Source: Burkholderiaceae bacterium
GTDB taxonomy: Bacteria > Pseudomonadota > Gammaproteobacteria > Burkholderiales > Burkholderiaceae_D
Direction of reading: 5' to 3'
Length of the DNA stretch: 13,928 nt
Assembly: GCA_019752915.1 (NCBI GenBank)
Contig: JAIELO010000412.1
Location: 1 to 13,928 of the forward strand
The position numbers and the translations under genes are program-made. Within the stretch, counting starts at the first letter, position 1. Every line of letters begins with the position of its first letter. The notes under the pieces were generated by a model. It was not told the DNA's origin. It ran no database searches and worked only from the letters and a program-made list of their open reading frames with translations. Below are positions 1-13,771 of the stretch, in pieces.

Positions 1-1080
1 ACCAAAAAATTCTTCGTGCTCTGCAGCCAGCTAGCGATTGGTGCCGGCTTTGCCGGTGTTGCACTGGCCATGTCGCTGCCGGACTACATGGTGGTGATGG
101 TGTTCCTGTTCGGCGTACTGTCGCTGATCGGCGCCACGCAGGACATTGCCTCAGATGGCGTCTACGTCACTTCGCTGGACGCGCCTACCCAGTCGCTGTT
201 TTGCGGCATCCAGAGCCTGAGCTGGAATATCGGCCCCATTGTCGCCTCGGGCGGCATGGTGTACCTGAGCGGCTGGCTGCATACCAACTACTTCCACCAC
301 GCTGCCGGCAGCTTCGGTGCCGAATGGATCGATGCGTGGCGCGTTATCTTCTTTATCGTCGCCGCCATCATCCTGCTGGCCGCCGTGTGGCATGCACGCG
401 TGATGCCCGATGGTGCCAAGGCCGACAATGCCCCGCGTTCGGTCGCGCAGGCAGCGTTTCTGCTGAAAGACTCCTTCGCCACCTTTTTCCAGAAGCGCGA
501 CGTCTGGTGGATGATCGGGTTTGCCTTCCTGTTCCGCCTCAGTATCGGCCTACTGGAAAAGATCGGCCCCTTCTTCATGGTCGATCCTGTCGCCCAGGGC
601 GGGCTGGGACTGTCGAACGAAATGCTCGGCCTGATCTACGGTACCTACGGCCTGATCGCCGTGCTGCTCGGCTCTTTGCTGGGTGGCCTGTTTGTCGCCA
701 AACGAGGGTTGAAAGCCAGCCTGTTTATCCTGTGCTGCGCGGTCAACATCCCCAACGTCACCTTCCTGCTAATGAGTATCTGGCAGCCGCATGACCTGCT
801 GCTGATCAGCGCCGGCGTCGCCATCGAAAAATTCTTCTTCGGCTTCGGCTCGGTGGGCTTCATGATCTACCTGATGCAGCAACTGGCGCCGGGCAAATAC
901 ACCACCACCCACTACGCCTTCGGCACTGGCCTGATGGGCCTGTGCATGATGGTAACCGGCGTCGTCAGCGGCCACCTGCAGCAAGCACTCGGCTACGTGC
1001 ACTACTTCTGGCTCGTCATGGCTGCCACCATCCCCTCCTTCCTGATCACCTGGTACGCACCCTTCCATCAGGAACACTAA
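1..1080 (+). CDS. AmpG-like MFS permease, 5' end outside the window
   Basis: The reading frame is open from base 1 and ends with TAA at 1078-1080, giving 359 visible residues with no convincing start inside, so the N-terminus lies outside the window. The protein is a polytopic inner-membrane permease: most of it is strongly hydrophobic segments, including a pair around residues 220-250 and a C-terminal helix ending in a short polar tail (PFHQEH). The early motif TQDIASDGVY resembles the conserved T-Q/H-D-I-A-x-D stretch of the AmpG/PAT-like branch of the major facilitator superfamily, whose characterised members import muropeptides or acetylated sugars by proton symport. About 60-90 residues (one or two helices) appear to be missing compared with usual family length. 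It converges on the TonB-dependent receptor, so it may carry that receptor's substrate across the inner membrane. The family call is fairly firm; the substrate is unknown. Confidence 0.8.
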   Translation, partial: TKKFFVLCSQLAIGAGFAGVALAMSLPDYMVVMVFLFGVLSLIGATQDIASDGVYVTSLDAPTQSLFCGIQSLSWNIGPIVASGGMVYLSGWLHTNYFHHAAGSFGAEWIDAWRVIFFIVAAIILLAAVWHARVMPDGAKADNAPRSVAQAAFLLKDSFATFFQKRDVWWMIGFAFLFRLSIGLLEKIGPFFMVDPVAQGGLGLSNEMLGLIYGTYGLIAVLLGSLLGGLFVAKRGLKASLFILCCAVNIPNVTFLLMSIWQPHDLLLISAGVAIEKFFFGFGSVGFMIYLMQQLAPGKYTTTHYAFGTGLMGLCMMVTGVVSGHLQQALGYVHYFWLVMAATIPSFLITWYAPFHQEH

Positions 1081-1304: not shown

Positions 1305-3737
1305 TTAGAAGGACTTGCCGACGTTGATGCCGATGGTACGTGGTGGCAGGTACTGCGCCTGCCATGGACCGTTGGCATTCATCGCGCTGGTCTTGATTTT
1401 TGCATCTTCAACGTTGCGGACGTAGGCATCGAAGTACCAGCTGCTATGTGCATCGAAGCGCAGACCCAGATCGGTGCGGGTGTACGACTTCTGCTTATCC
1501 GGTTCACCCAGATTGAACACGCTCAGCCAGCTAGCCGTCTCGTAGTGCGCACTGATACGCGGGATCAGCGTGCCGCTATCGAGTGCAATGCTGTGCTGGT
1601 ACATCACTTGCGCAGCAAACTTCGGCGAGTGCGGCATGGTGTTGCCGGTCACGTCGAGGCAGGTGCTGATACCAGCGACCGGGCAGGCAGGCAGCGCATA
1701 GTCGTTACTACCACCGATCAGGTGTTTCAGCGTGGCGTTGGTGTACGCAGCGGTCAGCTGGATGCGGTCTACTGGCGTCAGCTTGGCAGCGATCTCGGTT
1801 TCCAGACCCCAGACCTTGGCACCTTCGGCATTGCTGGTTGCCAGACCGCGCGTACCATCCGGATTGGTCACCGGTGCGCTGAACTGGAAGCCTTTGAACT
1901 TCTCATAGTAGGCCGCGTTATTCACCCGCAGCGAACCACCGAGGAAGGTGCTCTTCGTACCGATTTCATAGTTGGTCAGCGTTTCGGAACCGTATGGTTT
2001 GCCACCATCCTGCAGACCGCCCGACTTGTAGCCGGTCGAAACGCTGGCATAGACCATATTGTTCTTGTCGATATCGTAGCCGACCCGCACCAGACCGGTC
2101 AGCTTGTGATCGGTGAAGGTTGCATCATTGCGCTGATAGGTCGAGAAACCGGAGCCGGGAGCCAGTGGATTCATCGATGGATTCACCGGTACTTGCGGTG
2201 CTGTCAAATCGCTCCAGCCATTGTTGGTGCCGCCGATGTTCTTGCGCTCGTCCGAGGTGTAACGCAGGCCGCCCGTTACGTGCAGACTGTCGGTAGCGTT
2301 CCAGGTGGTCTGGCCGAACACCGCTTTCGAATCCACGGTTTCTTTCGGCTGGATGAAGGAACCCTGCCAGCCTACGGTGCCCTGCTCGGTGCCGTTCATG
2401 ATCGGAATGTCGAAGCGGATGCCGTTATCTTCGTTAGCGTAGTACAGACCTAACAGCCAGTCCACATCACGCTTGCCGGTCGACTGGATTTCCAGTTCGT
2501 GGCTGTAGTTCTTGTACTTCGACCAGACCGTGTTATTGGCCTGGAAGCTGCCGCCGGTGGTAAAGCTGGTTGGCAGATTCGCGCCACCATCCTGATCGAA
2601 GGTCGACGAACCGTTGAAACGCGCATAGCCGGCGATGTAGGCGAGGCTGATGTCCTTGTTGATGGCGTAATCGAGGCGGCTACGTACCGAGTGCGAATCG
2701 CGGTTGACGTTCGGCGCGGTGTCGATCAGCGCGGACCAGAAGTCCTGACCGGCACGTGGCGTCTGCATCAGATTCATGCTCGGCGTACCACGATCCATAT
2801 AGTGTTCGTAGGCGATGTTCCATTTCAGGTCAGCCGATGGCTGCCACAGGAAACTCAGACGCGCAGCGCTCTGATCCTGCGCACTGTACTTCTGGCCATT
2901 GCTGACAAACAGATTCGGGTTGATCGGCTGGAAGCCGATCGGGTTGCCCGGATTGGCTTTGTTCCATGCAGCGATGACAGGATCGGCTGCTGCGTGCTGG
3001 GCTGCCAGTGACACGCTTGGTGCACGCTGGTAGCTCACATAGCCGTTGTGCTGCTCATGTACCACTGCGACGCGCATTGCCATGGTGTCGTTAATCGGAA
3101 TATTGACGGCACCGCGTGCACCAAGGCGACCGAAGCTGCCATAACCGGCTTCAAAGTTGCCGCCCTTGCCGCCGATTTCCGGCTTCACGGTCTGCATATT
3201 GACTGCACCAACGGTGGAGTTACGGCCCCACAGCGTACCTTGCGGACCGCGCAGCACTTCGATCCCTTCCAGATCGAACAGCAGCGCTGTGGCGCCTTCC
3301 GGACGTGGCGAATACACGCCATCGACGAAGGTCGCTACTTCCGGATCAGCGTATTCGGTTTTGGCGCTATCGTTACCGATACCGCGCAGCGTCATGGTAA
3401 TCACACCATGGTCACCCTGGCCGGTGGCAGCAAAGCCCGGTACCAGATTCACCACATCCTGCAAGGTCTGCACGTGGTTATCGTCCAGTGCCGCTGCGTT
3501 GATGGCGGTAACAGCCACCGGCGTTTTCTGCAGCGAAGTGGAACGCTTGGTCGCGGTGACATACACCTCGGTAATCGCGGTGCTGTTCTTGTCGGCGGCA
3601 GCGGTTTGCTCGCTGGCCGGTGCATCGGCTGCAGCGGCAGCGTGGGCAGCGAGGTTGGTGCCGGCCATCAGGGCGAGGATGGCCAACTGGATCGGGGACG
3701 ACAAGCGCTTCCCGGTGCGCGGTACGTGGACGTTCAT
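1305..3737 (-). CDS. TonB-dependent outer-membrane receptor
   Basis: Predicted 810-residue active-uptake receptor of the outer membrane. Residues 1-37 look like a signal peptide (basic start, hydrophobic core, Ala-rich cleavage zone). A TonB-box-like ITEVYVTA lies near residues 56-63. The plug domain follows, with conserved GIEVLRGPQGTLWGRNST at about residues 158-175 and VGAVN just after. The remainder is a beta-barrel of aromatic-rich strands ending in the C-terminal Phe (GKSF) typical of outer-membrane proteins. The ATG at 3737 is chosen because AAGGAG lies 4 nt upstream and the signal peptide starts there. A frame extending to 3875 adds 46 non-signal-like residues that merely translate the operator repeats. 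The gene diverges from the halogenase gene across a shared LacI-type control region and ends in a strong terminator. The substrate is not readable; a sugar or glycoconjugate is inferred from the operators and permease. Confidence 0.93.
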   Translation of the reverse strand: MNVHVPRTGKRLSSPIQLAILALMAGTNLAAHAAAAADAPASEQTAAADKNSTAITEVYVTATKRSTSLQKTPVAVTAINAAALDDNHVQTLQDVVNLVPGFAATGQGDHGVITMTLRGIGNDSAKTEYADPEVATFVDGVYSPRPEGATALLFDLEGIEVLRGPQGTLWGRNSTVGAVNMQTVKPEIGGKGGNFEAGYGSFGRLGARGAVNIPINDTMAMRVAVVHEQHNGYVSYQRAPSVSLAAQHAAADPVIAAWNKANPGNPIGFQPINPNLFVSNGQKYSAQDQSAARLSFLWQPSADLKWNIAYEHYMDRGTPSMNLMQTPRAGQDFWSALIDTAPNVNRDSHSVRSRLDYAINKDISLAYIAGYARFNGSSTFDQDGGANLPTSFTTGGSFQANNTVWSKYKNYSHELEIQSTGKRDVDWLLGLYYANEDNGIRFDIPIMNGTEQGTVGWQGSFIQPKETVDSKAVFGQTTWNATDSLHVTGGLRYTSDERKNIGGTNNGWSDLTAPQVPVNPSMNPLAPGSGFSTYQRNDATFTDHKLTGLVRVGYDIDKNNMVYASVSTGYKSGGLQDGGKPYGSETLTNYEIGTKSTFLGGSLRVNNAAYYEKFKGFQFSAPVTNPDGTRGLATSNAEGAKVWGLETEIAAKLTPVDRIQLTAAYTNATLKHLIGGSNDYALPACPVAGISTCLDVTGNTMPHSPKFAAQVMYQHSIALDSGTLIPRISAHYETASWLSVFNLGEPDKQKSYTRTDLGLRFDAHSSWYFDAYVRNVEDAKIKTSAMNANGPWQAQYLPPRTIGINVGKSF

Positions 3738-3810
3738 AAGTCTCCTTAGTCGTAGCATACGCGACGGATTGGCGCTGCTACATTTATCGTGGAATGCGAT
3801 CTCATGTTGC

Positions 3811-3826
3811 TTGAAAACGTTTTCAA
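3811..3826. promoter_or_regulatory. LacI-type operator O1
   Basis: TTGAAAACGTTTTCAA is a perfect 16-bp palindrome centred on CG, the form bound by LacI/GalR-family regulators. It is the best of three sites and lies nearest the receptor gene, within its predicted 5' untranslated region. Its centre (3818/3819) is exactly 21 bp from that of the next site. Confidence 0.8.
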
Positions 3827-3833
3827 ACTTAAT

Positions 3834-3845
3834 GAAACCGTTTTC
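3834..3845. promoter_or_regulatory. LacI-type operator O2
   Basis: GAAACCGTTTTC matches the O1 core GAAAACGTTTTC at 11 of 12 positions. Its centre at 3839/3840 is 21 bp from O1 and 21 bp from O3, so all three sites lie on the same DNA face if the helix repeat is 10.5 bp. Confidence 0.72.
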
Positions 3846-3850
3846 GTTCT

Positions 3851-3878
3851 TTGTGAAATCGTTTTCATGGTACATAAT
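3851..3878 (+). promoter_or_regulatory. Candidate promoter of the halogenase gene
   Basis: TTGTGA (3851-3856), a 16-bp spacer and CATAAT (3873-3878, one mismatch to TATAAT) give a plausible sigma-70 promoter, about 105 bp upstream of the halogenase start. Operator O3 begins within the -35 hexamer and fills much of the spacer, so repressor binding would block RNA polymerase. The -35 match is only moderate. Confidence 0.42.
3854..3867. promoter_or_regulatory. LacI-type operator O3
   Basis: TGAAATCGTTTTCA keeps the CG centre and both TGAAA/TTTCA ends of O1, with one substitution in the core palindrome (GAAATCGTTTTC, 3855-3866). It is 21 bp from O2 and overlaps both predicted divergent promoters, which makes it the likeliest site for simultaneous repression of the receptor and halogenase genes. 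Confidence 0.72.
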
Positions 3879-3896
3879 TCAAATCACGGATGTCAA
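3867..3896 (-). promoter_or_regulatory. Candidate promoter of the TonB-dependent receptor
   Basis: On the minus strand a consensus TTGACA (3896-3891) is followed after 18 bp by TACCAT (3872-3867), a 4/6 match to TATAAT. Transcription would begin near 3860, inside operator O3, giving a leader of about 120 nt that contains O2 and O1. The -10 match is weak, so this is tentative. Confidence 0.35.
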
Positions 3897-3983
3897 ACGA
3901 AAAATTCAAGAAGCGTTGTTTCCACGACATGGGGCCATAACACCCTGCGCGGAAAACAAAGCTCGCCAAGGAGATCAGCCAGT

Positions 3984-5591
3984 ATGTCTAATACTTTGTC
4001 CAGCACCATGTCCGGTGCCACGCCTGCTAGCAGTTCGGCAGCAGCAGCACCACACGCCATCAAACACGTGATGATCGTCGGCGGCGGTAGCGCCGGCTGG
4101 CTCACAGCAGCCTTCCTCGCCCGTACCCTCGGCACCGGCGCCGATGCTGACAGCGTGCGCATCACCGTGGTCGAATCGCCCGACATCGGTATCATCGGCG
4201 TAGGCGAAGGCAGCTTCCCGTCGATCCGCGGCACGCTGGCGGCGATCGGCATCGACGAAGCGCGCTTTGTGCGTGAATGCGACGCCACCTTCAAGCAGGG
4301 TATCCGTTTCAACGACTGGGTGCGCCCGCCGAACAGCGGCGGCAATCAGCACTACTTCCATCCCTTCAGCCTGCCCAGCCAGCGGCCCGGCGGTCCTGAA
4401 CTACTGCCCTACTGGCTGCAAGGCGTCGCCCCAGCAGGAACCGGCTTTGCGGCAGCAGCGACCATGCAGAAGCGGGTCGCCGATGCCTCCCACGCTCCCA
4501 AGCGGCCTAGCGATGCCGACTTCATGGGGCCACTCAATTACGCCTACCATTTCGATGCCAGCAAATTTGCCGCGCTACTCGGCAACCATGCCCGCACGCT
4601 GGGCGTGCAGCATATCGCCGCCACCGTGGAACGGGTGGAACTCGACAACGCGGGTGCCATCGCCGCAGTCCATACGCCGCAGGCAGGCCGTCTGACGGCC
4701 GATCTGTACATCGACTGCACGGGATTTCGCGCCACCCTGATCGGCGCAGCGCTGGGTAGCGAATTCCACAGCCTTAGCGACACGCTGTTTGTTGATCGTG
4801 CGCTGGCCATGCAGGTGCCATACGAACACGCTGACGCGCCCATCCCCTCCTATACCATCTCCAGCGCCCACCAAGCTGGCTGGACGTGGGACATCGGTCT
4901 ACAGCAACGGCGCGGCATCGGCTATGTGTATTCGAGCCGTCACAGCGATGCAGCCAGTGCCGAACAGGTGCTGCGCGATTACATCGGCCCGGCCAGCAAG
5001 GGACTGGAACCGCGCCAGTTGACGCTCAATCTTGGCTACCGCAAGCAGCACTGGGTGAAGAACTGTGTAGCGGTAGGTCTGTCGGGCGGCTTCATCGAGC
5101 CGCTGGAAGCGTCCGGCATCGGCCTGATCGAAACGGCTGCCTACCTGCTCGGCTATCTATTCCCCCACAACGGCGAGCTGGCACCTGCCGCACGTCTATA
5201 CAACGAGATGATGAGCGCGCGCTACGAACGCATCGTCGATTTCGTCAAACTGCACTACTGCCTGACGCAGCGGCGCGACAGCCAGTTCTGGATCGATAAC
5301 ACCGACCCGGCCAGCATCCCCGCAACGCTGCGCGACAAACTCGCCATGTGGCGCACGCGCGCACCGCAACGCATGGACTTCGTTGTGGACTATGAAATGT
5401 ACCCGCCCACCAGCTGGCAGTATGTGCTGTACGGGATGGAATATCCGACCGCGCTCTACGCCAATGCGCGCACCCTGCCACGTGCCGCCGAAGCGCGTGA
5501 AGAATTCCGCATGATCGAGCAGGTGTCGCAACGCGCGCTGGCCGATCTGCCCACGCATCGCGCGCTGATCGATCATTTTCTGCAACGTTAA
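3984..5591 (+). CDS. Flavin-dependent tryptophan-halogenase-family protein
   Basis: 535-residue FAD enzyme of the tryptophan halogenase family, cytoplasmic. The start at 3984 is preceded by AAGGAG with a 10-nt gap. The FAD-binding GGGSAGW is at residues 33-39 and GVGEGSFP at 72-79. DATFKQGIRF contains K104, aligning with the catalytic lysine K79 of RebH. GWTWDIG is at 299-305 and FIEPLEASG at 370-378, where E375 matches the catalytic glutamate. Family enzymes use reduced FAD, oxygen and halide to halogenate electron-rich aromatics through hypohalous acid. Two departures from tryptophan halogenases: WxWxIP reads WTWDIG, and the Ser after the catalytic Glu is Ala. Pairing with a TonB-dependent receptor under LacI-type operators recalls receptor-linked halogenases of Brevundimonas and Xanthomonas, which prefer free indole and bromide; the native substrate is unclear. 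No flavin reductase is nearby, so one must act in trans. Confidence 0.87.
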   Translation: MSNTLSSTMSGATPASSSAAAAPHAIKHVMIVGGGSAGWLTAAFLARTLGTGADADSVRITVVESPDIGIIGVGEGSFPSIRGTLAAIGIDEARFVRECDATFKQGIRFNDWVRPPNSGGNQHYFHPFSLPSQRPGGPELLPYWLQGVAPAGTGFAAAATMQKRVADASHAPKRPSDADFMGPLNYAYHFDASKFAALLGNHARTLGVQHIAATVERVELDNAGAIAAVHTPQAGRLTADLYIDCTGFRATLIGAALGSEFHSLSDTLFVDRALAMQVPYEHADAPIPSYTISSAHQAGWTWDIGLQQRRGIGYVYSSRHSDAASAEQVLRDYIGPASKGLEPRQLTLNLGYRKQHWVKNCVAVGLSGGFIEPLEASGIGLIETAAYLLGYLFPHNGELAPAARLYNEMMSARYERIVDFVKLHYCLTQRRDSQFWIDNTDPASIPATLRDKLAMWRTRAPQRMDFVVDYEMYPPTSWQYVLYGMEYPTALYANARTLPRAAEAREEFRMIEQVSQRALADLPTHRALIDHFLQR

Positions 5592-6981: not shown

Positions 6982-8241
6982 ATGAAATCCCTGATAGCCC
7001 TCGGCGTTGCGCTGGCCTTTGCTGCCCCGCTGGCGCAGGCCGACAGCAACGCTGCCGATCCGGTCAGCGCGCTGGTTGGCCAGCTCAATCTGGACCAGTA
7101 CAAAGCCACCATCAAAAGCCTGACCCGCTTCGGCGACCGCCGTCAAGGCACCCAGCGTAACCGCGATGCGCTGGACTGGATCGAAGCACAGCTCAAAGCC
7201 TACGGCTGCAGCAATACCGAACGCCTGCAATACGAGTACACCCAGCCAGCGCCCGATGCGCCCCCCGCCAAACGTGCGCCCGGCATCCCCAGCGGTGGTG
7301 CAGGCGGCCCGCCGGGACAGGGCGGCAGCACGCTATTCGGCAATCGCGCCCCGATCGGGGTGAATACCGATCCGCTACGCCAGCCCGATGAAAAGCTGCG
7401 CGCCCTGAACGCCGAAGCTACGCCGGTCGGCACCTCGCAGCGCGAGAATGTCTACTGCACCAAGATCGGCACCAGCCATCCCGAAGAAATGTATATCGTC
7501 AGCGCCCACATGGACGGTATCGGTTTTGGCGAAGCGGCCAACGATGACGGCTCCGGCACGGCGCTGGTGATGGAACTGGCACGCATCTTCAGCGCCCCCG
7601 GCGTGCAGACCGAACGCTCGATCCGCTTCGCGCTGTGGAACAACGAAGAAACCGGCCTGAATGGCGCAACTGCTTACGCCCAGCAGCGCAAGGATTTGCA
7701 GGGCATCGAGTCACCCGCCGGGTCCGGGCGCTATCCGGAGCCGCGCTGGCTGGGCGTGATCCAGCACGACATGATGTTGTGGGATCACGGTATGCCGATT
7801 CCTCTGCGCGACGCCAAGGGCCAGCTGGTGCTGGATGCGAAAGGCCAGACGCAATATATTTCGCCTGCCGAGCAGCGCCTCGAAGCGGATGTGAATATCG
7901 AGTACCAGAGCGTGTCGCGCCATGCCGATGCTTCGGCCAAACTGGCCTGGGCGCTGCGCGCGGCCAACGACAAGTACGCCACCAATTACCCGGCCACGGT
8001 CGGCTTCCACATGACCAATACCGACTCCACCCCGTTCATGGATCTGGTGCCTGCTGTCTCGCTGCGCGAGAATGAACGGGGGCAGCAGATCGGCGCTGGC
8101 TGGGACCCGAACTGGCACCAGCCTTCCGATGTGTATGCGACCTATTCGGACAAGGATTTTCTGCTGGGTTTGAACGCGGCGCAAACCACACTGGCCGGCG
8201 TGGCAAAACTGGCCGGTGCCAGTTTGCGCAAACTGCCCTAG
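6982..8241 (+). CDS. Exported M28-family zinc metallopeptidase
   Basis: 419 residues. The ATG at 6982 is chosen for AAGGA 5 nt upstream and the signal peptide at residues 1-20 (cleavage AQA/DS); the frame runs further upstream but without these marks. The M28 ligand set is complete: H176/D178 in SAHMDG, D188/D189 in ANDDGSG, E222/E223 in NNEETG, D263 in QHDMM and H379 in NWHQPSD. This predicts a co-catalytic dizinc aminopeptidase or related exopeptidase in the periplasm or outside the cell. Residues 89-120 form a Pro/Gly-rich low-complexity insert before the catalytic core. The common S-D-H-x-P-F stretch of M28 enzymes reads T-D-S-T-P-F here. It diverges from the M15 gene and converges on flagellin; no operon partner is visible. 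The exact substrate is unknown. Confidence 0.88.
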   Translation: MKSLIALGVALAFAAPLAQADSNAADPVSALVGQLNLDQYKATIKSLTRFGDRRQGTQRNRDALDWIEAQLKAYGCSNTERLQYEYTQPAPDAPPAKRAPGIPSGGAGGPPGQGGSTLFGNRAPIGVNTDPLRQPDEKLRALNAEATPVGTSQRENVYCTKIGTSHPEEMYIVSAHMDGIGFGEAANDDGSGTALVMELARIFSAPGVQTERSIRFALWNNEETGLNGATAYAQQRKDLQGIESPAGSGRYPEPRWLGVIQHDMMLWDHGMPIPLRDAKGQLVLDAKGQTQYISPAEQRLEADVNIEYQSVSRHADASAKLAWALRAANDKYATNYPATVGFHMTNTDSTPFMDLVPAVSLRENERGQQIGAGWDPNWHQPSDVYATYSDKDFLLGLNAAQTTLAGVAKLAGASLRKLP

Positions 8242-9888: not shown

Positions 9889-11484
9889 CTAATGGGGCAG
9901 GAGTTCGAGTCGCTCGCGCGCCTGCGCCAGCTGGGCACTGTCCATCCGTGCCGCGACGTTTTTCAGGTAACGGCTGGCGGTGCCGAAGCCGTTGCGTTCA
10001 GCCAGCGCCAGCCATAACCAGGCTTGTGCGCTATCGGCGCGCACGCCCTGTCCGCACATGAACATCAGGCCCAGGTTGAACTGCGCCCGGGCATGTCCCT
10101 GCGCTGCGGCCTTCAGATACCAGTGGTGCGCCTGCGCGTAATCCTGCGCCATGCCCAGACCATTATCGCAGCGCAGTCCCAGCGTGAACTGGGCCAGCAC
10201 GTGCCCCTGTTCGGCCGCCTTGGCGTACCAGCCGTTGGCCTGCGCACAATCGGGCTGCGGCCCGTCGTCCTTATCGTGCAGCAGCGCCAGCGCATACTGG
10301 GCCGCCACGTAATCCTGTTCGGCAGCGCGGCGATACCAGTGCATCGCTTTCTTCTCGTCGCGCGGCACCCCGCCGCCCGTCTGGTAGCGCAGACCCAGAT
10401 CGAACTGGGCGCGCAGATGGCCCTGATCGGCCGCCTTGCGGTACCAGAACACGGCTTCCTGCTGATCCTGTGGCACGCCGTAACCGGCGTCATACAGATT
10501 ACCCAGCTGGTACTGGGCACCGGGGAAGCCTTGCTCGGCCGCCTTGCGGTACCAGTGCTGCGCCTGTACGTAGTCCTGCGCCACACCCTGACCATGCTCG
10601 TAACGCAAGCCGAGATTATTCTGCGCGCCGGCATGGCCCTGCTCGGCCGCCTTGCGATACCAGTCCAGCGCCTTCTGCTCGTCGCGCGGCACACCCTGAC
10701 CGTTATCGTAGATCAGCCCCAGATTGAACTGCGAGCTGGCGTGATCCTGTTCGGCAGCGCGGCGATACCAGAGGATCGCCTTCTGGCTATCCTGCGCCAC
10801 GCCATCGCCTTTATCGAAGCGCAGCGCCAGATTGAACTGCGCCGGTGCGTAGCCCTGATCGGCGGCCTTGCGGTACCACGACATGGCCTGCCCGACATCC
10901 TGCGGCACACCCTGACCGTGGTCATAGCGCAGCCCCAGATTGAACTGGGCCCGCGCATAGCCCTGCTCGGCCGCCTTGCGGTACCAGGCAATCGCCTGCT
11001 TGAAATCCTGCGGCACGCCTTTGCCAGTGTCGTACATCATGCCCAGATTGTTCTGCGCGCCAGCGTCGCCCTGTTCGGCAGCCTTGCTGAACCAGTACAT
11101 GGCTTGCTGGGTATCGGCCTCGAGGCCCTGACCTTTGGCATACAGCCAGCCCAGGTTGTACTGGGCTGCCGCATAACCCTGTTCGGCCGCCAGCTGATAC
11201 CACGCCGCCGCTTCCTGGAAGCTCTGCTGCACGCCCTGCCCCTTCTGGTACATCACGCCGAGGTTGTACTGCGCGTGTTCCAGCCCGGCCTGCGCGGCCT
11301 GACGATACCAGACCACGGCCAGTTCGTAGCTTTGCACTACGCCCTGCCCGTTAAAATACATAAAGCCCAGACTATGCTGGGCATTGGCTACGCCGCGTTC
11401 GGCCAGCCCCTTCACGCGCAGGAATTCGGCGGTGTAGGTGCTGCCGTTTTTGGCGTCGGCTTCGTTGGGACTATATTTGGTCAT
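9889..11484 (-). CDS. Sel1-like repeat protein with 13 tandem repeats
   Basis: 531 residues from the ATG at 11484. A TTG start at 11520 in the same frame would overlap the upstream gene and is less likely. After a short N-terminal part, about residues 36-500 are 13 head-to-tail Sel1-like repeats of 36 residues (consensus FNLGLRYDxGQGVPQD, then AxxWYRKAAEQG), followed by a tail of about 30 residues. Such alpha-alpha repeats form a superhelical scaffold for protein-protein contact. No signal peptide or membrane segment is visible, so the protein is probably cytoplasmic, unlike many exported Sel1 proteins. It begins 19 bp after the stop of the GGDEF-EAL gene, so it is probably co-transcribed and may scaffold or connect that regulator to a target. 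Its Shine-Dalgarno is weak, pointing to translational coupling. The specific partner is unknown. Confidence 0.9.
   Translation of the reverse strand: MTKYSPNEADAKNGSTYTAEFLRVKGLAERGVANAQHSLGFMYFNGQGVVQSYELAVVWYRQAAQAGLEHAQYNLGVMYQKGQGVQQSFQEAAAWYQLAAEQGYAAAQYNLGWLYAKGQGLEADTQQAMYWFSKAAEQGDAGAQNNLGMMYDTGKGVPQDFKQAIAWYRKAAEQGYARAQFNLGLRYDHGQGVPQDVGQAMSWYRKAADQGYAPAQFNLALRFDKGDGVAQDSQKAILWYRRAAEQDHASSQFNLGLIYDNGQGVPRDEQKALDWYRKAAEQGHAGAQNNLGLRYEHGQGVAQDYVQAQHWYRKAAEQGFPGAQYQLGNLYDAGYGVPQDQQEAVFWYRKAADQGHLRAQFDLGLRYQTGGGVPRDEKKAMHWYRRAAEQDYVAAQYALALLHDKDDGPQPDCAQANGWYAKAAEQGHVLAQFTLGLRCDNGLGMAQDYAQAHHWYLKAAAQGHARAQFNLGLMFMCGQGVRADSAQAWLWLALAERNGFGTASRYLKNVAARMDSAQLAQARERLELLPH
9901..11400 (-). 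repeat. 108-bp tandem coding repeats of the Sel1 gene (approximate bounds)
   Basis: The 13 protein repeats are also visible as DNA repeats. On the plus strand variants of GGCCGCCTTGCGGTACCA recur about every 108 bp (for example near 10431, 10539, 10647, 10863 and 10971), as do CAGATTGAACTG-like stretches. Several adjacent units are near-identical over 15-18 bp, which could support unequal recombination and repeat-number change. Confidence 0.75.
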
Positions 11485-11503
11485 ACCGTTTTCATCATAC
11501 CGC

Positions 11504-13771
11504 TCAGGCCTGGATCGCAATCATCGCCGCAGCACTGCTGCCGCTTGGTACCGCGTGCAGCATGCGGGTGCCGGCTGGCGCACTGGGGCTCTGCTGTTGA
11601 TTGAGCACGTCGATGAAGTTGGCCAGCGACAGCGGACGGTGATACAGATAGCCCTGCATGGTGGCGCAGCCATTCGCCTTGAGGTAGCGTGCCTGCACTT
11701 CCGTCTCGACGCCTTCTGCTACCAGATGCAGACCCAGCCCGCGGGCGATCGAAATAATCGCCAGAATCACCGGATAGTGACCATGCTCGTCGTGAATCTC
11801 CTTGACGAAGGACTGGTCGATCTTGATGGTGTGGATCGGGAAGCGGTGCAGATACGACAGCGAAGAATAGCCGGTACCGAAATCGTCGATCGCCACCGAC
11901 ACACCGAGCTGGCAAAGTTTGTTCAACTGTTCGATCGCGTACTGCGGATTACGGATACAGATATTCTCGGTAATCTCGACCTCGATCTGGGCTGGCGAAA
12001 TGCCATAGCGGGTCAGTGCCCCGCGCATTTTCTCGAAGAAGTCGCCGCGATCCAGATACTGCGGCGACAGGTTCAGTGACAGGCGGATCGCATCGCCACC
12101 GGCGGCATTCCACAGCAGCATATCGCGGCACAGCGCGCCCAGCATCCAGTCCGAGATCGGCAGCATCAGGCCATTTTCTTCGGCAAACGGCAGGAACTCG
12201 CCGGCCGACAGCAGACCGCGCTGCGGATGGTTCCAGCGCATCAGCCCTTCCGCGCCGATGATCCGGCCGGTCGCCATATCGATCTGCGGCTGGTAGTACA
12301 TTTCCAGCTCGTTGAATTCGAGTGCCTTGCGCAGACTCTGCTCCAGCGCGATCTTCTGGTGCGACACATCGAGCATCGAGTTGTGATAGAAGCTGTGGCC
12401 GTTCTTGCCGAGCGCCTTGACCTGATACATGGCGATGTCGGCATGGCGCAGCAGCTCGTCGATGGTCTCGCCGTCGCCGGGATAGATGGCGATCCCGATC
12501 GAGGCCGAGATGTGCACTTCGTGACCATCCAGATCGAATGGCCGGTGCAGGCTCTCGAGGAATTTGTCGGCAATCGACTTGGCGTCCTGACGGTCGCGCA
12601 GTTCCGGCAGCACGATGGTAAATTCGTCGCCCCCCTGACGCGCCAGCGTATCGCCGCGACGCAGGCAATCCTTGAGGCGCTGCGCAACCTGCTGCAGCAG
12701 CTCGTCGCCCTTGACGTGACCGAGGGTATCATTGACCAGCTTGAAGCGGTCCAGATCGACAAACATCACGGCCAGTTCGGTCAGCTTGCGTTTGGCCTGA
12801 ATCACGGCCAGTCCGAGGCGGTCCTTGAACAGCATGCGGTTCGGCAGATCGGTCAGAATGTCGTGATAGGCCTGATAGGAAATCACTTCTTCGGCGCGTT
12901 TGCGGTCGGTGATGTCGCGCGCCACACCGTAGGTACCGAAGAACTCGCGCTGCTTCACGTCCTGCTCCGGCACATGCATGCCGATCGCATTGAGCGAAAT
13001 CGTCATCAGGGTATTGCTGAAGGTACGTTCGATACCGCTACCAATATTCGACTTCAGGCGCAGTTCGACATTGCGCGAAGCGCGCTCGTCGGCGCGCCGG
13101 TCGTTGAAGGCATAGCGCGCCCGCTCCAGATCTTCCTCGTGCACCAGCACCGAGTAGTGCTTGCCGATCAGCTCTTCGCGGCTAAAGCCCAGCAACTGCT
13201 GTACGCGGTCGTTGACGAACGTGATCCGCCCTTCATGGTTCAGGGTATAGATGATATCGGGCGAACTATCGACCAGATAACGGTACATCTTTTCCGAATT
13301 TTCCAGCTGCGACGCGATGCGCGCATTGTCGATCGCGAGGCGGCGCTTCTGCAGCGCGTTCTCCACCGTTTTGAGCAGTTCTTCGCGGCTGTAAGGCTTG
13401 CGCAGATAGTCGTAGGCGCCGCGCTTCAAAGCGCCGATGGCGGCCTCGATGCCGACATCACCACTCATCACGATGATGTCGCCCTCGATGCCTTTGGCAT
13501 TGATGAAGTCCATGATCTCGTGGCCGCTCATATCGGGCAGGCGCAGATCGAGCAGGATCAGATCGAATTTCAGGCGGGTCAACTGGGCCAGCGCTTCGGC
13601 ACCATTGGTAGCCGTCACCAGTTCGTAATCACGGTCGCGCAGCAACTCGTACAGAGAAGACAGCAAGCGCGGCTCGTCGTCGACCAGCAGCAAACGCGGG
13701 CAATAATCTTTAGCGACGGCGACATTGGTTTGGGTCACCGCATTCAGACTGGCAGGGCTCAGGTTCATCAT
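11504..13771 (-). CDS. Response regulator with REC-PAS-GGDEF-EAL domains (cyclic-di-GMP turnover)
   Basis: 755 residues, cytoplasmic. Receiver domain at about 25-140: acidic D31/D32, phospho-acceptor D75 in LILLDLRLPD, S103 and K125 in RKP. PAS/PAC at about 160-293, ending GVARDITDRKRAEE. GGDEF at about 300-465: RQGGDEF at 378-384 is intact, and R371-x-x-D374 five residues before it is a complete inhibitory I-site. EAL at about 475-725: E508 in EGLMRW, N568, E599 in EVEITEN, D629-D630 in DDFGTGYSS, K650, E687 in EGVE and Q706 in MQGY. Both diguanylate cyclase and phosphodiesterase sites look competent, though EAL itself reads EGL. It lies 4 bp after a histidine kinase stop, its likely phospho-donor. 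Two ATGs stand in tandem (13771 and 13768); AAGG upstream suits the second better. Confidence 0.95.
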   Translation of the reverse strand: MMNLSPASLNAVTQTNVAVAKDYCPRLLLVDDEPRLLSSLYELLRDRDYELVTATNGAEALAQLTRLKFDLILLDLRLPDMSGHEIMDFINAKGIEGDIIVMSGDVGIEAAIGALKRGAYDYLRKPYSREELLKTVENALQKRRLAIDNARIASQLENSEKMYRYLVDSSPDIIYTLNHEGRITFVNDRVQQLLGFSREELIGKHYSVLVHEEDLERARYAFNDRRADERASRNVELRLKSNIGSGIERTFSNTLMTISLNAIGMHVPEQDVKQREFFGTYGVARDITDRKRAEEVISYQAYHDILTDLPNRMLFKDRLGLAVIQAKRKLTELAVMFVDLDRFKLVNDTLGHVKGDELLQQVAQRLKDCLRRGDTLARQGGDEFTIVLPELRDRQDAKSIADKFLESLHRPFDLDGHEVHISASIGIAIYPGDGETIDELLRHADIAMYQVKALGKNGHSFYHNSMLDVSHQKIALEQSLRKALEFNELEMYYQPQIDMATGRIIGAEGLMRWNHPQRGLLSAGEFLPFAEENGLMLPISDWMLGALCRDMLLWNAAGGDAIRLSLNLSPQYLDRGDFFEKMRGALTRYGISPAQIEVEITENICIRNPQYAIEQLNKLCQLGVSVAIDDFGTGYSSLSYLHRFPIHTIKIDQSFVKEIHDEHGHYPVILAIISIARGLGLHLVAEGVETEVQARYLKANGCATMQGYLYHRPLSLANFIDVLNQQQSPSAPAGTRMLHAVPSGSSAAAMIAIQA

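Follow-up and report, generated by a model that had tools for sequence, protein, structure and literature searches.

A conserved, 21-bp-phased array of LacI-type operators between divergent receptor and halogenase-like genes is the predicted switch of a glucokinase-linked sugar repressor

What reads the palindromes that lie between a TonB-dependent receptor gene and a divergent flavin-dependent halogenase-like gene, and why do they stand at an exact interval? The locus was found in the window (the whole analyzed stretch of 13,928 nucleotides), which is contig C17 of genome G000, an assembly of 2.71 Mb in 448 contigs that is 60.7% complete. The best matches among named records were to Oxalobacteraceae, chiefly Duganella. 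The receptor gene (1305 to 3737, minus strand; PF00593 and PF07715) and the halogenase-like gene (3984 to 5591, plus strand; PF04820, Pfam E value of 3.5e-131) were given starts at 3737 and 3984 by eye, and an MFS transporter gene (1 to 1080, plus strand; PF07690) has its 5′ end cut off at the contig end. The closest solved chain to the halogenase-like protein is 2pyx; the protein retains GGGSAGW and the lysine of FKxGIxF but reads WTWDIG, where tryptophan halogenases have the WxWxIP motif. Elsewhere in the window, a repetitive protein with NCBIfam ExoR-, AlgK-, and MotX-like repeat matches, below cutoff, is encoded at 9889 to 11520 between flagellin-like and GGDEF/EAL-like genes.

Reading of positions 3811 to 3867 gave three CG-centered palindromes with centers at 3818.5, 3839.5, and 3860.5, a step of exactly 21 bp, or two helical turns. 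These are operator 1 (TGAAAACGTTTTCA, 3812 to 3825, 0 mismatches), operator 2 (TGAAACCGTTTTCG, 3833 to 3846, 1 mismatch), and operator 3 (TGAAATCGTTTTCA, 3854 to 3867, 0 mismatches), none of which is assigned a strand. When the window was scanned at up to two mismatches to TGAAANCGNTTTCA, four matches were obtained against 0.33 expected, and four were reached in 0 of 200 shuffles; three of the matches are operators 1 to 3, and the remaining one is at 11481. The preliminary description of this DNA had reported the three palindromes and their exact phase, which the sequence and the shuffles confirm, and the 21-bp steps are in line with its placement of the sites on one helical face. The array extends beyond those three sites: 21 bp further out, in the same phase, lies a degenerate fourth operator, site 0 (GGAATGCGATCTCA, 3791 to 3804, center at 3797.5, likewise strandless), which retains its CG center. 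Site 0 scores 5.7 of 23.4 bits in the window and at least 12 bits at the equivalent place in 18 relatives, on a weight matrix trained on strong sites of the very loci scored with it.

Chance palindromes, or selection of another kind, such as for promoter bending by phased A/T tracts, would be an extremely improbable source of this pattern. In-phase A- and T-tracts do occur within the sites, as bending would have it, but the shuffles speak against chance, and the operator letters vary with the recognition helix of the regulator while the CG center is retained (see below). Tandem duplication of a 21-bp unit was considered and rejected, as the spacers are mutually dissimilar and a repeat search reported no direct-repeat family within 3400 to 4100, the conserved units being short and the spacers unrelated. 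An old duplication may be the source of the array; the repeat search and the spacer comparison speak neither for nor against it.

The region upstream of the halogenase gene was scanned in 80 related loci in addition to the window (81 in total). Fifty-seven loci, the window included, have TGAAA-type sites by the halogenase gene and were anchored on the halogenase-proximal strong site, which was picked by hand from the site table before spacings were counted by script. The 24 unanchored loci comprise 23 TGACA-type loci and L094, which has a different gene order and also contains a 21-bp pair (3621.5 and 3642.5). A receptor-related ORF on the opposite strand was found in 79 of the 80 related loci; it is nonadjacent in L094, and L119 has none. 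In many Duganella loci, a TGAAAACGTTACCA-type match near 7984 to 7996 reads as a start codon with K-T-L-P after it, and the spacing counts do not include this match.

The neighbor of operator 3 lies at 21 bp in 48 of the 57 anchored loci, at 19 or 20 bp in 2, and at 38 to 40 bp in 5, and it is lacking in 2. The 21-bp phase is therefore conserved in homologous loci, the check that the preliminary description had proposed, but it is not universal, with a 21-bp neighbor missing in 9 of 57. A third site was found 42 bp from operator 3 in 28 of these loci and a fourth at 63 bp in 18 (at 62 bp in 2 others), and the pattern is nested, with a site at 42 bp but none at 21 bp in 0 of 57. In a quick halogenase tree with single support values, the two-site form occupies 18 of 20 rows of a Massilia/Undibacterium-type clade, and three or four sites are present in all 27 rows of the Duganella-type clade; the window belongs to a five-row group within the latter that lacks a strong fourth site. 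The loci with 38- to 40-bp spacing cluster in a separate group, and L073, with four sites, falls outside the Duganella-type clade, in a group with a support value of 94. Sites were probably gained outward in a constant register, the outermost having decayed in the lineage of the window.

A consensus scan of positions 3650 to 4050 found two promoter-like sites against 0.3 expected. The predicted receptor promoter is on the minus strand (TTGACA at 3896 to 3891, an 18-bp spacer, and TACCAT at 3872 to 3867), with a predicted start at about 3860, and the predicted halogenase promoter is on the plus strand (TTGTGA at 3851 to 3856, a 16-bp spacer, and CATAAT at 3873 to 3878), with operator 3 between its hexamers. 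The predicted receptor promoter is sigma-70-like and fixed relative to operator 3, with at least four of six positions matched in both hexamers in 57/57 anchored loci, GTCAA located 24 bp past operator 3 in 56 (GTTAA in 1), and TAnnAT at the −10 position in all 57. The predicted plus-strand halogenase promoter stands at the equivalent place in 23/23 Duganella-type loci and 0/34 other anchored loci. None of these counts are independent trials, because the loci are related by descent and their anchors were chosen manually. From the scan and the locus counts, the predicted promoters overlap on operator 3 in back-to-back orientation, with the predicted receptor start near its center, which bears out the earlier placement of the array over both promoters. 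An arrangement of two separate promoters with the array between them was discarded, since both promoters fall on operator 3 in the scan and in the 57-locus count. As operator 3 keeps a fixed distance to the predicted receptor promoter and also, among Duganella-type loci, lies between the predicted halogenase hexamers, one bound dimer could cover both. In predicted receptor-transcript coordinates, the operator centers fall at about +1 (operator 3), +22 (operator 2), +43 (operator 1), and +64 (site 0), so that operators 2, 1, and 0 are in the receptor leader, past the predicted receptor start, and lie upstream of the predicted halogenase promoter.

Is the spacing itself under selection? In 23 Duganella-type loci, operators 1 and 2 are separated by 20 different sequences, which have a mean pairwise identity of 0.45 but a single length; from operator 1 to the receptor start, in contrast, 8 different distances were found, from 78 to 87. 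When 26 close and independent pairs were compared, spacer length had changed 3 times over 322 bp versus about 16 expected from the flanking DNA, in which 156 gap events were counted in 3060 bp (Poisson P of ~7e-5). No pairs above 30% distance entered this test; 2 of the 57 loci gave no halogenase protein, one right flank of less than 60% identity was excluded, and every spacer was taken as 7 bp, including those of the 38- to 40-bp pairs. The flank gaps come from automatic pairwise alignments and were probably overcounted, and at half that rate the length test becomes weak. As the flank gap count is likely high, the data are good, not final, evidence that spacer length is kept while spacer sequence drifts.

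Against this background, the same repressor might simply occupy independent sites, with extra sites raising occupancy only and the 21-bp register reflecting ancestry or the footprint of a dimer. We consider this a possible reading, though not a probable one. It gains from the TGACA-type loci, which mostly hold two sites at 22 to 24 or 34 bp (among the 23 loci, pairs are spaced at 22 to 24 bp in 15, 21 bp in 2, and 34 bp in 2, with no clear pair in 4), from the anchored relatives with one site or a spacing of 38 to 40 bp, and from the absence of a 21-bp array at the GH1, glk, and regulator promoters examined. It does not readily accommodate an operator 1-2 spacer of constant length despite 20 distinct sequences in 23 loci, nor the four-site arrays of L073 and the Duganella-type clade, which are ungrouped in the quick tree and share the same register.

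The candidate regulator was sought in eight congeners listed as complete, chosen by the authors from those of 36 same-genus genomes that gave the better halogenase matches (17 of the 36 have a halogenase that is at least 65% identical). These eight contain 39 perfect TGAAAWCGWTTTCA sites and 119 LacI-domain matches. Perfect sites within 200 bp of a LacI helix-turn-helix (HTH) numbered eight, one in each congener and always beside the same orthologue; a reversed control pattern gave 0 sites in each of the eight. Identities of 85 to 91% were found among four of the regulators, and the orthology of the remaining ones (L127, L129, L132, and L134) rests on scores of 651 to 704 bits. A glucokinase ORF diverges from the regulator gene in the eight congeners and in the L047 and L048 genomes (PF02685 in the L047 metagenome-assembled genome [MAG]) but not at five more distant regulator loci that were read. 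The regulator gene with its operator is present in the L047 MAG, the halogenase of which is 96 to 97% identical to that of the window. No orthologue was found in the window's own MAG (60.7% complete), where the nearest LacI protein is 38% identical, so the link between regulator and array rests on the relatives. The preliminary description had called the sites LacI-type and put the regulator gene outside the window, and both points agree with CG-centered even palindromes that recur, in relatives, at a LacI-family gene unlinked to the array and next to a glucokinase gene.

Two LacI paralogues could instead share or compete for the array. Each congener does have 10 to 20 LacI-domain matches, but in a genome scan confined to perfect sites a single LacI gene per congener is adjoined by one, and we therefore regard this as unlikely. 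Among 15 regulator loci read, a strong CG-centered site lies upstream of the HTH, no more than 400 bp away, in 12; the upstream site of the L147 locus is GG centered only, and L150 and L151 have no site of at least 8 bits near the regulator gene. A conserved GG-centered near-palindrome, CGAAAAGGTTTTCA, was also seen in L127 to L134, about 60 to 80 bp before the HTH codons and just past a likely extended −10 element, and might serve as a weak site for autoregulation.

In many relatives of the Undibacterium and Massilia types, a LacI gene comes directly after the halogenase gene. At TGAAA-type loci, all 29 LacI genes encode P/A-S/A before TVSR or TASR in the recognition helix, and at TGACA-type loci, all 22 encode I/T/M-K before TVSR/TASR; 29 of the 80 loci were without a LacI gene of readable helix in the stretch examined. 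This covariation is the strongest sequence evidence that proteins of this family read these sites. The TGACA-type loci of the Roseateles/Mitsuaria type (L104, L105, L107, L110, L112, L114, L118, and others) have the same gene pair with TGACAACGTTGTCA-like pairs, mostly at 22 to 24 bp, and with their different LacI (K-TVSR helix) they represent an apparent regulator swap at a conserved locus.

By sequence, the closest solved chains to the regulator are 3oqo and 3oqm (CcpA). CcpA is a global regulator acting with a phosphorylated partner, and its cre site resembles TGAAANCGNTTTCA; in contrast, the glk-linked repressor has a small regulon. Residues of the L047 regulator could be aligned up to position 355 of 359 with E. 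coli LacI up to position 329 of 360. The protein thus stops 4 residues past the LacI-core alignment, and a C-terminal tetramerization tail was not found in this orthologue, the one examined. Without such a tail, dimers bound side by side fit better than LacI-type looping.

In L047, the gene order is GH1 beta-glucosidase, MFS transporter, receptor, and halogenase. Elsewhere in the window's genome, contig C51 ends past such a GH1 gene (PF00232) with its own operator site; because the ends of C51 and the window have no exact 30-mer in common, their adjacency is taken from the L047 gene order. By that order, the MFS and GH1 genes occupy the place just left of base 1 where a LacI gene had been anticipated. 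Inside the GH1 gene, 540 bp past the first site, is a second operator-like site (L008 8502 to 8515, on C51), which is either an auxiliary operator or a coding coincidence and was excluded as a regulon operator since it lies in coding sequence and has 1 to 2 mismatches in 8 of the 10 loci showing it. The array might also serve as one anchor of a lac-like DNA loop to the GH1 operators about 5.7 kb away, and the internal site, with 0 mismatches to TGAAANCGNTTTCA, would suit such a loop. We judge it highly unlikely, given a candidate repressor with no tail beyond the LacI core, the mismatches of the internal site in most loci, and a GH1 gene that is differently placed relative to the array in Massilia-type loci, e.g., L076.

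Operators stand next to GH1, MFS, receptor, and glucokinase genes. Six further perfect sites were examined in G007 and G008, of which three precede GH3, GH9, and receptor genes. The GH3 gene (site at L135 6343 to 6356) and the GH9 cellulase-like gene (site at L139 5889 to 5902) were each seen in a single congener, as was this second receptor gene. Sites with no recognized sugar gene nearby were those of L136 (an acyltransferase-like ORF), L138 (a family-less ORF), and L140 (within a chemotaxis-receptor ORF). In the window's genome, two operator-like sites 53 bp apart (L009 519 to 585, on contig C216) lie upstream of another TonB-dependent receptor gene, possibly an additional regulon member. 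The GH1, MFS, and glucokinase genes suggest a beta-glucoside signal, and the regulon as predicted points to beta-glucoside use.

The best overall explanation, to which we assign a probability of roughly 0.8, is that a single sugar-responsive repressor of the LacI/GalR family has the array as its operator; this repressor would be encoded elsewhere, beside a glucokinase gene, and control a regulon for beta-glucoside uptake and breakdown. Very probably, the array functions as a switch, one of a type already known in outline. In the absence of inducer, repressor dimers would sit side by side on one DNA face, probably binding cooperatively by aiding each other. The dimer at operator 3 would shut both promoters, and those at the remaining operators would reinforce it and act as a roadblock within the 5′ leader of the receptor transcript. 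The dimers would be freed by a sugar, either glucose or a beta-glucoside, as the inducer, and the phased array would give the receptor a steeper switch than that of the single-site regulon genes. The DNA in LacI and PurR structures is kinked at the CG center. A more specific and quite doubtful reading would be a short in-phase repressor filament growing outward from the receptor start, in which dimers at +1, +22, +43, and +64 sum their CG kinks to a planar bend or wrap; the array would then act as a register-locked leader roadblock, tuned in strength by evolution site by site, from one to four, rather than by simple promoter occlusion.

Phased LacI-type sites have precedents. The part of a published comparative account that deals with them (PMC4052901) records tandem LacI-family sites before 1118 operons, in groups of three in 116 and four in 5, with distance peaks at 13, 22, and 32 bp. 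For RafR of Enterobacteriales and ScrR of Burkholderiales, it describes double sites only, at 21 to 22 bp, a spacing from which cooperative binding of two dimers was inferred (PMC4052901). The present array resembles theirs in its CG-centered even palindromes, the rule for the family according to that account, and in its conserved neighbors at 21 to 22 bp (21 bp in 48/57 anchored loci). It differs from them in its regulon and in the number and placement of its sites: there are as many as four, at a fixed distance from the predicted receptor promoter, and most of them lie past the predicted start. The published groups of three and four have the same number of sites per region, in a section that gives neither spacings nor gene names (PMC4052901). 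BglR-type LacI regulators likewise control beta-glucoside genes, a likeness drawn from their description (PMC4052901) rather than from sequence or motif letters, and the beta-glucosidase, transporter, and receptor genes of such a regulon are found here, where operators adjoin the GH1, MFS, receptor, and glucokinase genes. GluR of Caulobacterales, also compared by description, has glk among its targets (PMC4052901). With phased pairs and groups of three and four already described there, the array is best seen as a well-conserved case of a known principle, and it is unusually regular and well conserved among phased LacI-type sites. Titles and abstract openings of the literature searched showed no comparable array, and the word halogenase does not occur in the main text of PMC4052901.

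Control by one sugar-type repressor would tie the halogenase-like protein to sugar uptake. The native substrates of its relatives BrvH and Xcc4156 are given as unknown in PMC7336383. The relatives of this locus form a natural series in which one promoter has one to four operators in constant register. The series spans dozens of species, many of which have been cultured; Pseudoduganella danionis (L048), for one, is culturable and has the array. It can be used to test what a LacI-family switch gains from each added phased operator, and whether the effect depends on helical phase or simply on adjacency, with the TGACA-type relatives, mostly spaced at 22 to 24 bp, as a natural contrast.
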